Of a stretch of 64,000 bases of DNA, positions 25,554 to 28,118 are shown piece after piece. Under the pieces are notes generated by a model. That model saw only the letters and a list, made by a program, of their open reading frames with translations. It did not search any database and had not been told where the DNA came from. Location of the stretch: the NCBI GenBank assembly GCA_009773515.1, contig WSXX01000011.1, forward strand, positions 1 through 64,000. The letters are read 5' to 3'. This DNA comes from Bacteroidota bacterium (lineage in GTDB: Bacteria > Bacteroidota > Bacteroidia > Bacteroidales > Lentimicrobiaceae). The position numbers were made by a program, and so were the translations under genes. Each line of letters begins with the position of its first letter. Position 1 is the first letter of the stretch.

Positions 25554-27209
25554 ATGAAAAAGCAACTTTTCTTTTCCTTCGCATTCATCATGAGTGCATT
25601 TTTCACCTATGCACAGGACGATATGCCTGTTGTTTGGGAATCGCGTATGGATCATAAAATTGAGCACACCGGAACCGGAACCGAAGAACGCGGCTACAGC
25701 TATGCAGCTTCAGACAAGGAAATCACAGTTTTCGACAATGTAACCGGCAAGGTAAAATGGAGTAAAAAATTCAAAGAGATGGCTCCAAAACTCTCGAAAA
25801 TTGATGAACTTATTCCTTTCTGGGAATCTGACATTATTTTCCTTTTCGACAGAAAACTAGGAAAAGACGTTATCGCAGTGGTTGAAATGGAAAACGGAAA
25901 TTTCCTCTGGTCAACCGATAAATATCAGGATGTAGATGAAGAAAATGTGATTTACATCCCTGAAGAAGAAAGTTTTGCCATTTCATTAAAGAAAGAACTG
26001 GTGTTCATAAAAGCGAAAACCGGTGAAGAACGTTGGTCAACTGCCAAATTCAAAGGTGTGGTAGGAAAATATGTAGTTACCGGCGACGGAAACCTGATTA
26101 TGATAAATTTTGTCCCCAGCTCTTTGGGCGCACTTTTTACTGGCTTTAAGAATCAGATTGTCAGAATCAATGTAAAAAACGGAGATATTATCTGGGAAAA
26201 TACCTACATCGGTAGGGCCGAAAGAAAAGTAATTTCAGGTGAATTTATGTATGATCTGTTTGTTGACAACGACAAGGTTGTACTGAGGATGAACGGATAT
26301 CAGGTTTACGATATGAAAACCGGCGCCAGTATATGGTCGGCAGCTTTCGATTATTCACCCGATGGTGTTGCAAGCCGCCCGGCCGGAGCAAAGAAATTCG
26401 GCATCTATGGAGCAGTTGCCGATCCGATTAGGGTTGGAAATGATTTGTATATTCTTGACATGTCGAACAAGCGCAATCAGTACATCAAAAAATACGATGT
26501 CAATTCAGGAAAACTGATCTGGACTTCTCCCGAGATTAAAGATGCAAGGGCAATCCCGAATATGTACATCATGGGTGATAAAGTTGTGCTTCAGATCGGA
26601 GGTAATGTTGAAGCTCAGGCCTATATTTACCGCCGCACCCGCAATGCAGATGGATCTTATACCACTTATGAAGAATGGAAAATCTGGTATCCGAACGTAA
26701 AACCAAACGGAGTGCAAACGTTCAATACTGCTGACGGCAAACTTGTGTGGGATTCAGAAAGGTTCAGAAAAGGAATAACCAATATGATTGATGCCGGTGA
26801 GAATCTTATTGTTTCGAGCGGAAAATCGCTTTACAAAATGGATGTTAATACCGGAAAAGAATTATATGAAGTGCCGGTAGCCAAAGGTGGAGTCGGAAAT
26901 GCTGAGATGATTTTTCCTTTTAAGGATATGGTAGCTGTGGTTGGTGAAAAAGGTGTTTCTACTTTTAAAATTGACAACGGAGATCTAGTGGCAAACGGAA
27001 AATACAAAACATCAATGCTCGAAGACCGCTTCGACAATATTATAATTATGAAAACCGCCGGAGCAGATATTGCTTCATTTGATCTGAATACCTGCAAATT
27101 CCTCGAATTTAAAGCCCGTAAAGGTGCTACAACATCGCTCACAACCGATGGCAGTTACGTTTATGTTTATGAAAACAAAACCGTGACTAAAGTCAAAACA
27201 GAAAAATAA
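25554..27209 (+). CDS. Secreted PQQ-like beta-propeller protein
   Basis: This is a 551-residue exported protein with a signal peptide (about 1-21). Repeated blades of the PQQ-binding-like type are seen, each with a DxxTGKxxW-like element: DNVTGKVKWSKKF, VEMENGNFLWSTD, IKAKTGEERWSTA, INVKNGDIIWENT, DMKTGASIWSA, DVNSGKLIWTS, NTADGKLVWDSE and DVNTGKELYEV. That gives about eight blades. No dehydrogenase active-site residues or BamB context are evident, so it is probably a structural or binding propeller. It ends the three-gene secreted group, and a strong terminator follows. Confidence 0.78.
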   Translation: MKKQLFFSFAFIMSAFFTYAQDDMPVVWESRMDHKIEHTGTGTEERGYSYAASDKEITVFDNVTGKVKWSKKFKEMAPKLSKIDELIPFWESDIIFLFDRKLGKDVIAVVEMENGNFLWSTDKYQDVDEENVIYIPEEESFAISLKKELVFIKAKTGEERWSTAKFKGVVGKYVVTGDGNLIMINFVPSSLGALFTGFKNQIVRINVKNGDIIWENTYIGRAERKVISGEFMYDLFVDNDKVVLRMNGYQVYDMKTGASIWSAAFDYSPDGVASRPAGAKKFGIYGAVADPIRVGNDLYILDMSNKRNQYIKKYDVNSGKLIWTSPEIKDARAIPNMYIMGDKVVLQIGGNVEAQAYIYRRTRNADGSYTTYEEWKIWYPNVKPNGVQTFNTADGKLVWDSERFRKGITNMIDAGENLIVSSGKSLYKMDVNTGKELYEVPVAKGGVGNAEMIFPFKDMVAVVGEKGVSTFKIDNGDLVANGKYKTSMLEDRFDNIIIMKTAGADIASFDLNTCKFLEFKARKGATTSLTTDGSYVYVYENKTVTKVKTEK

Positions 27210-27226
27210 ATAGTAACTGGTTAACG

Positions 27227-27260
27227 AAAAGGTGGAAGGCTGCGGCTTTCCACCTTTTTT
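27227..27260 (+). terminator. Terminator after the secreted propeller group
   Basis: A stem of about 14 pairs (aaaaggtggaaggc with ggctttccacctttt, one G-U pair) is followed by a T run. It lies about 18 bases after the stop codon of the PQQ-like gene. Confidence 0.88.
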
Positions 27261-27384
27261 GCTTTAAAGGCATGAAAGTAGTTAAAGTGCGAAGATGAAT
27301 CGTGACAATACTTTTTCCCCGGAGCCACTTTATTCTTTATTTCAAAATGTTGATATTATGAAAGATAAGCTTACAGATAATTTG

Positions 27385-27392
27385 TATCTTTG
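27385..27392 (+). promoter_or_regulatory. Putative -7 box for the leader peptide / Rnk-like gene
   Basis: TATCTTTG is a full match to TAnnTTTG. Transcription would start near 27398-27399, almost at the ATG of the short leader frame at 27400, so the leader would be translated from a very short or absent 5' untranslated region. Confidence 0.5.
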
Positions 27393-27399
27393 CTAAACA

Positions 27400-27456
27400 A
27401 TGAGAAACATGAAACTTCGAAACAAAAACCTCAGTATTCTTCCTCCCGGGAATTAA
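27400..27456 (+). CDS. Putative leader peptide MRNMKLRNKNLSILPPGN
   Basis: This is an 18-codon frame (15 codons if translation starts at the ATG at 27409) that ends in Pro-Pro-Gly-Asn-stop. It lies between a good -7 box and a terminator hairpin, both in the same direction and ahead of the Rnk/GreA-like gene. PPG is an established ribosome-stalling triplet relieved by EF-P. The codons for PPG (cctcccggg) can pair with the 5' arm of the downstream hairpin, so this could be a translational attenuator. The frame could also be chance; its length gives little statistical support. Confidence 0.4.
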   Translation: MRNMKLRNKNLSILPPGN

Positions 27457-27479
27457 TAAAACCTGAACCTTTTTTAATG

Positions 27480-27502
27480 GCCGGGTTTTGCCCGGCTTTT
27501 TT
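27480..27502 (+). terminator. Hairpin with T run between leader frame and Rnk-like gene (possible attenuator)
   Basis: The stem gccggg (27480-27485) pairs with cccggc (27491-27496) around a five-base loop, and six Ts follow. It lies 23 bases after the leader stop codon and 22 bases before the Rnk-like ATG. It would stop transcription before the gene unless an alternative pairing, for example with cccgg at 27446-27450, prevents it. Confidence 0.8.
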
Positions 27503-27523
27503 ATTTTCACAAAATCAACAGAA

Positions 27524-27934
27524 ATGAAAGACATCATCATCAGTTCGCTGGACATGGCGCGGTTGCGTTCACAGATTGACAAAGCGCGAAGCGGAGGCAT
27601 CAATGCACCGATTAATCTCAATCCACTTATCAAAGAGTTGGATCGCGCCAAAGTATTACCACCCGAAAAAATGCCACCCGATGTAGTAACGATGAATTCA
27701 ATTGTTAAACTCGACTACCTGAACAGCAGCAAAACAATGCAGATAGAAATTGTTTACCCTCGTCAGGCAGACACCACAAAACGCAAAATTTCGATTTTTG
27801 CCCCAGTGGCAACTGCATTGCTGGGTTATAGAAAAGGAGATATTGTTAAACTGGAAGTTCCGGGCGGATTGGCTGAGCTCCGGATCGCCGATATTGTTTA
27901 TCAACCGGAAGCTGCGGGGGATTTGGATCTTTAA
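27524..27934 (+). CDS. Rnk / GreA-GreB family transcription factor
   Basis: This 136-residue protein is of the Rnk type: an N-terminal helical region (1-50) and a GreA/GreB C-terminal FKBP-like domain (PF01272) from about 55 on. Signatures are LPPEKMPPDVVTMNSIVKLDY and SIFAPVATALLGYRKGDIVKLEVPGG. Gre-type domains bind RNA polymerase near the secondary channel. Rnk lacks the long coiled coil needed for transcript cleavage, and its N-terminal region is short here too, so cleavage activity is not expected. The ATG at 27524 begins the family similarity; an upstream GTG/TTG extension would run into the hairpin. Confidence 0.82.
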   Translation: MKDIIISSLDMARLRSQIDKARSGGINAPINLNPLIKELDRAKVLPPEKMPPDVVTMNSIVKLDYLNSSKTMQIEIVYPRQADTTKRKISIFAPVATALLGYRKGDIVKLEVPGGLAELRIADIVYQPEAAGDLDL

Positions 27935-27945
27935 CAATATTAAAT

Positions 27946-28118
27946 ATCCTTCGACTCCCCTTCGACAGGCTCAGGACAGGCTGCTACCAATGACAGATTG
28001 TTCGTTTAGTCCTTCGACTCCGCTCAGGATGACATCGTATAGAGTTGATAAAGAGTGCATTAAAAAGAATCATTGCTGACCTAACACGAATGTCACACTG
28101 AGCGGAGTCGAAGTGTTT
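27946..28118 (+). repeat. Dispersed intergenic repeat, copy B, with a 24-base insert
   Basis: It has the same block order as copy A: atccttcgactcc ... accaatgacagattgttcg ... ctcaggatgacatcgtata ... tgtcacactgagcggagtcg. Compared with copy A it has an extra 24 bases at about 27958-27981 (ccttcgacaggctcaggaca then ggct) placed after actcc. Confidence 0.85.

Follow-up and report, generated by a model that had tools for sequence, protein, structure and literature searches.

Rnk is a small RNA-polymerase-binding protein. In ribosome-mediated attenuators of the trp/his type, a leader reading frame stops beside an antiterminator arm, alternative hairpins compete, and a terminator stands before the gene. 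Attenuators of greA/rnk genes have been described in Proteobacteria, bacilli and Clostridia (Naville and Gautheret 2010, PMC2965389; Rfam RF01771), and regulation by GraL, the greA leader of E. coli, depends on catalytically active GreA (PMC6829880). In Bacteroidota, short leader frames and attenuation have been suspected, both in Flavobacterium psychrophilum (PMC9723704) and in B. thetaiotaomicron (PMC7366714). Here we analyse the leader of an rnk gene in a 64,000-nucleotide stretch of a Lentimicrobiaceae genome (contig WSXX01000011.1; "the window" is this whole stretch). Based on comparison with relatives and on predicted folding, we propose that the leader is a ribosome-sensing transcription attenuator of rnk, with a probability of roughly 0.6. 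It would be a Bacteroidota variant of the known greA/rnk attenuation, bearing an upstream open reading frame (uORF), and the mechanism set out below is the probable one.

The promoter box, leader frame, hairpin and Rnk-like gene named in a preliminary description of this DNA are all present where that description had placed them (TATCTTTG; ATG at 27400; hairpin at 27479-27497; rnk ATG at 27524; Table 1). The rnk gene is intact, and its assignment to the Rnk/GreA-like proteins is confirmed by a score of 114.9 bits against NCBIfam NF004396 (curated cut-off 109) and by Rnk_N (PF14760) and GreA_GreB (PF01272) domains that are both above their Pfam cut-offs. The genus sample comprised 19 genomes, including the window's own, of which 12 have an Rnk ortholog at 53-100% identity and the remaining seven weak Rnk matches or none. 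As expected of the greA/rnk attenuator class, a GC hairpin with a T tract precedes rnk in 12/12 of these orthologs, the stem ending 20-30 nucleotides (nt) before the ATG. A leader from another family of the same order (L123, identical in protein and leader to L044) likewise has its terminator close before rnk, on the same plan, and completes the set of 13 leaders compared here. The window hairpin has 8 base pairs (bp), six of them GC, and a loop of 3, followed by T's. Since the upstream PQQ-domain gene, which ends at 27209, has a hairpin of its own directly behind it, the one before rnk is not needed to terminate that gene. In 9 of the 13 leaders the nearest upstream long open reading frame is on the same strand and ends 169-699 nt before rnk.

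For each leader, the stretch of transcript that was folded began close to the presumed start and ran to approximately the last base of the terminator loop. In all 13, the minimum free energy (MFE) structure was an antiterminator in which the stretch after the uORF stop pairs with the 5' arm and loop of the terminator, the competing fold that characterises greA/rnk attenuators. In the window, 27457-27465 is predicted to pair with 27482-27490, together with two further inner pairs (Table 1). A position test, which counted the bases pairing with the stretch 8-27 nt ahead of the terminator and compared the count with shuffles, gave P<0.05 in 12 of the 13 leaders. Combined by Fisher's method over nine lineages, one leader each, the result was 5.9e-7, or 1.6e-6 without the window. 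The fit of each upstream segment to its own target was equalled by 96 of 362,880 permutations, and the pair count over all nine lineages by 888 of 362,880. These results indicate that the predicted positions of terminator, leader frame and antiterminator are conserved in relatives and that the terminator is probably conditional, as the preliminary description had supposed.

Taken singly, the elements of this leader are common. TAnnTTTG alone is unremarkable, with 73 matches in the window against 69 expected, and a 7-kb scan returned nine terminator-like sites against 6.7 in shuffles, the rnk-leader hairpin being the richest in G-C pairs. Among 47 likely window genes, each taken to start at the first ATG of a long open reading frame, only rnk has, within 100 nt upstream, a terminator with a stem of 6 bp or more and 4 or more GC pairs. 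That an ordinary terminator and a random AT-rich frame came together by chance is contradicted by the conservation in 12/12 orthologs and by the combined tests, and is hardly credible.

Eleven of the 12 genus leaders have a full TAnnTTTG box ahead of the uORF, and in L123 the near-match TATATTTT was taken as the box. With any start codon allowed, a uORF is present in 12 of the 13 leaders, its start 10-19 nt behind the box and its stop 1-8 nt short of the antiterminator arm; if ATG alone is accepted, 11 leaders have one, starting 16-22 nt after the box, and shuffles reproduce this ATG-only arrangement in 1.5-6% each. L013 has a GTG 19 nt after the box, which shares its reading frame with the TTG found by the scan at 10 nt. 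The spacing from stop to arm is 1-4 nt in ten leaders, and two others have spacings of 6 and 8 nt; in 12/13 the uORF stop thus lies beside the arm, as in trp-type leaders. In the window this distance is 1 nt, measured to the arm as the uORF scan delimits it. The 18-codon frame of the preliminary description does exist, opening at 27400 (MRNMKLRNKNLSILPPGN), 7 nt after the box, and ending at the same stop codon. Comparison nevertheless makes the second ATG at 27409 (MKLRNKNLSILPPGN, 15 codons), which sits 16 nt after the box, the more likely start. In one group of leaders the first eight codons of the frame keep the peptide MQIILHSY: between L005 and L007-L009 there are four nucleotide changes, all synonymous and including an AGT/TCT exchange for serine (chance 0.0003-0.0008), and L006 keeps the same peptide through three nucleotide changes relative to L007-L009 (chance 0.003). 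Codons 9-13 show 7-10 changes in these comparisons of L005 and L006. Judged across all leaders, the constant feature is the predicted position of the stop codon rather than the peptide.

The unit from box to terminator measures about 110 nt, the size of a small transcript, and could be a separate gene for a small RNA or small protein with an ordinary terminator, rnk then having a promoter inside or after the hairpin. Leader RNA can act in trans, as reported for GraL (PMC6829880), and one-mismatch boxes occur between the hairpin start and the ATG in 5 of the 13 leaders. However, no exact TAnnTTTG was found between hairpin and rnk ATG in any of the 13, which leaves the upstream box as the only evident promoter, and within the genus the unit always lies 20-30 nt before rnk. 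An RNA model of the leader (R1), with 150 candidates scored in each of 19 genomes, matched nine genomes, and the matches were its own nine source leaders before rnk; it missed L011, L012 and L015, which were outside its training set, and so says little. We consider a separate gene improbable.

The comparison thus establishes a conserved predicted terminator, a conserved antiterminator position and a conserved uORF geometry, and since the antiterminator fold is shared as well, a conserved attenuator is likely. From this arrangement we infer the transcription start, translation of the uORF, termination, the direction of the switch and its signal. Transcription would begin just after 27392, and the nascent leader would form the antiterminator, or the terminator once 27491-27497 has been made. 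A ribosome at the uORF stop would cover the upstream arm, the terminator arm would be freed and transcription would end. If the ribosome were absent or held on earlier codons, the arm would stay free, the antiterminator would form and rnk would be made. With only 1-4 nt between uORF end and arm in ten leaders, a ribosome sitting at the stop codon should reach over the arm. In a masking model, in which a ribosome shields the RNA from 12 nt upstream to 15 nt downstream of the first P-site base, ten leaders lost more than half of their antiterminator pairing with the ribosome at the last codon. Judged by eye, the 13 peptides have no repeated codons for a single regulatory amino acid in common, and for this reason the general translation rate of the uORF is more likely to be the signal than any one amino acid.

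Several observations weigh against this interpretation. In leader L013 the position test is not significant (p 0.29), and without the position constraint single leaders are mostly no better than shuffles (p 0.002-0.54; 0.01-0.52). When the divergent leaders L011 and L123 are removed, the pair count collapses (876 of 5040 permutations, P=0.17), so that the covariation depends partly on these two. The lineages are not fully independent, the tree being mostly unresolved, and the uORF and position criteria were chosen after the sequences had been seen. L015 has no box and its uORF stops 11 nt from the arm, outside the uORF criterion. The masking model shows little or no loss of the antiterminator in L011, L014 and L015 when a ribosome stands at the stop, and in the window and L013 it shows the antiterminator lost with the ribosome at codon 7 (codons 7-8 in L013) as well. 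The other two frames of the MQIILHSY region would show just 1-3 changes, and the uORF peptides are not conserved across the genus. Finally, 16/16 genus greA orthologs carry a terminator 32-43 nt before the start, so a terminator near a start codon is not special in itself; box, uORF and antiterminator are what distinguish rnk.

The last two points also bear on an alternative in which terminator and antiterminator are switched by a protein (Rnk or GreA, for instance, working on the polymerase in the manner of GraL) or by an RNA-binding factor, with the short frame incidental or serving only to set the folding. In E. coli, greA regulates its own expression by way of the leader terminator GraL (PMC6829880), and the wide variation of the uORF peptides and the uORF-less terminators close before genus greA would suit such a switch. 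It does not readily account for a uORF stop at a near-constant place before the arm in most leaders, nor for a part of the peptide that changes solely synonymously in one group, and we regard it as unlikely, if worth serious attention. The greA comparison covered 16 loci (L016-L029, L031 and L032); L030 and L033, other paralogs with unsure starts, were left out. The greA hairpin is itself well conserved (gaaaggaccctt...aagggtcttttc, with a T-rich tail) between the neighbour gene and greA. By eye, these hairpins lie past the stop of a same-strand neighbour gene, and no TAnnTTTG was found in the 190 nt upstream at any of the 16 loci. They therefore look like terminators of the neighbour gene, and could still be uORF-less greA attenuators.

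The preliminary description had centred on a ribosome stalled at the Pro-Pro-Gly (PPG) codons of the uORF, relieved by EF-P and acting through pairing of cccgg in these codons with ccggg in the terminator arm. The frame and the pairing do exist in the window, and the pairing is nearly as stable as its alternative: for a transcript cut at 27490 it is the MFE structure (-13.2 kcal/mol), and one base longer the arm behind the stop codon takes over (-13.5 kcal/mol). It is less conserved than that arm, all five pairs being kept only in the window and in L013, where one is G-U. A Pro-Pro-X motif conserved at the uORF end, as a PPG/EF-P stalling leader would have, is likewise seen in just 2 of the 13 uORFs (PPGN in the window, PPWN in L013), and PPG was rejected as a conserved element. 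The other 11 leaders have neither Pro-Pro nor the full pairing, among them five relatives at 79-81% Rnk identity; for most relatives this is the outcome that the preliminary description had itself named as refuting its model. The conserved half of the antiterminator is not the PPG codons but 27457-27465, downstream of the stop codon. As the general mechanism, PPG stalling is therefore very improbable. It may have a narrower part: in the masking model, the antiterminator bases that stay paired in the window number 9.5 with the P site at the first Pro, 6.6 at the second (Pro13), 4.1 at Gly and 0.2 at Asn. Most of the antiterminator is thus left at Pro13, and a PPG pause would fall at the boundary of the switch, its sign not being clear. 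PPG may tune the switch in the window species and L013 without being its general sensor. A second DNA match to Leu-Pro-Pro-Gly-Asn-stop in the genome (C14) was set aside, its neighbours being other genes as judged by eye.

Outside the genus, 24 rnk loci of the order were surveyed, five further entries without a locus being left out. A terminator within 100 nt before rnk was found at 8 of the 24 under a looser criterion and at 7 in a second scan, and two of these loci, L123 and L131, combine it with a uORF in a similar position. L131 may show the plan in a third version: the frame MKCCALLRSYVLPCRPPTC is followed by a weak arm, and the terminator ends 28 nt before rnk. In the phylum sample, of which 14 loci (L148-L161) of 29 fetched (L148-L176) were scanned, a single locus (L149) has a terminator within 100 nt before rnk, and it follows the stop of the upstream gene. 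Some of the rnk terminators outside the genus are better explained as terminators of upstream genes. At two loci of another family (L121 and L125), some 55 nt upstream of rnk, a TAAATTTG box immediately precedes a terminator-like hairpin of 11 bp, with no space left for a uORF; a short leader of the GraL kind and a hairpin stabilising the 5' end are both conceivable. In the family designated f22, Rnk is present in 2 of 12 genomes.

Table 1. Features of the rnk leader and its surroundings in the window
Feature	Position	Strand	Basis or remark
Putative TAnnTTTG (-7) promoter box, TATCTTTG	27385..27392	+	motif match
Predicted leader uORF, likely start at second ATG, MKLRNKNLSILPPGN	27409..27456	+	stop TAA at 27454-27456
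Alternative arm cccgg inside the Pro-Pro-Gly codons	27445..27449	+	can pair with 27481-27485; predicted at one transcript length
Antiterminator 5' arm, taaaacctg	27457..27465	+	directly after stop codon; nascent-transcript MFE, position test
Two extra inner antiterminator pairs (cc)	27468-27469 with 27479-27480	+	nascent-transcript MFE
Terminator 5' arm and loop	27479..27490	+	27482-27490 doubles as antiterminator 3' arm
Predicted intrinsic terminator, ggccgggttttgcccggct, with T tract	27479..27503	+	stem end 26 nt before rnk ATG
rnk gene, 136 amino acids	27524..27934	+	Rnk / nucleoside diphosphate kinase regulator, GreA/GreB C-terminal domain
Separate terminator-like hairpin directly after upstream PQQ-domain gene	27227..27260	+	by eye; unlisted by terminator scan

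Behind rnk, the intergenic region 27950-28118 contains repeated ccttcgactccgctcaggatgaca-like words in both orientations (e.g. cactgagcggagtcgaagtg) and resembles a dispersed genomic repeat.

The covariance model of the enterobacterial rnk leader (RF01771) matched 2/2 enterobacterial loci and none of eight Bacteroidales loci; in the window, no rnk_leader was found at E<=1 between 27200 and 27700, and weak Rfam matches in 27200-27515 were rejected, all being below gathering scores. Enterobacterial rnk leaders inspected for a uORF showed nothing clear; two such leaders of the RF01771 type (L085 and L097) have atgaatgtgacatt words in common before the terminator. No paper on a Bacteroidota rnk leader was found in the open-licence literature by title, abstract start or passages, in searches of which one would miss "Bacteroidetes". 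The main text of PMC2965389 contains no words beginning "Bacteroid", and "rnk" is absent from the main texts of PMC9723704 and PMC7366714.

If the proposed attenuator is real, greA/rnk attenuation exists in Bacteroidota with a different anatomy, and the rnk leader offers a short, readily mutated test case. In its fullest form, which we put forward only tentatively and hold to be doubtful, the proposal is that a translation-rate sensor indifferent to the amino acid sets the level of a secondary-channel factor of RNA polymerase in Bacteroidota, rnk being made when ribosomes do not get as far as the leader stop, with a Pro-Pro-X pause added exactly at the switch point in the window species and L013.

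Compared with described systems, the leader would be new as a variant, since it bears a uORF, belongs to Bacteroidota and is unmatched by RF01771, while greA/rnk attenuation itself is already known elsewhere. Like trp/his leaders, it has a uORF stop adjoining the antiterminator arm, alternative hairpins and a terminator before the gene; unlike them, it has no single-codon run, no biosynthetic gene and no 1:2 protector hairpin that we could identify. The Flavobacterium candidates precede amino-acid biosynthesis operons (PMC9723704), unlike the rnk leader. GraL shares with it a leader terminator before a GreA-family gene, and has just 19 nt before that terminator (PMC6829880), which leaves no room for such a uORF. 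The rnk- and greA-leaders of PMC2965389 combine a terminator and an antiterminator before the same gene family and were predicted to be transcription attenuators, as here; the section on them names no leader peptide, whereas the predicted uORF of the window ends right before the antiterminator arm.
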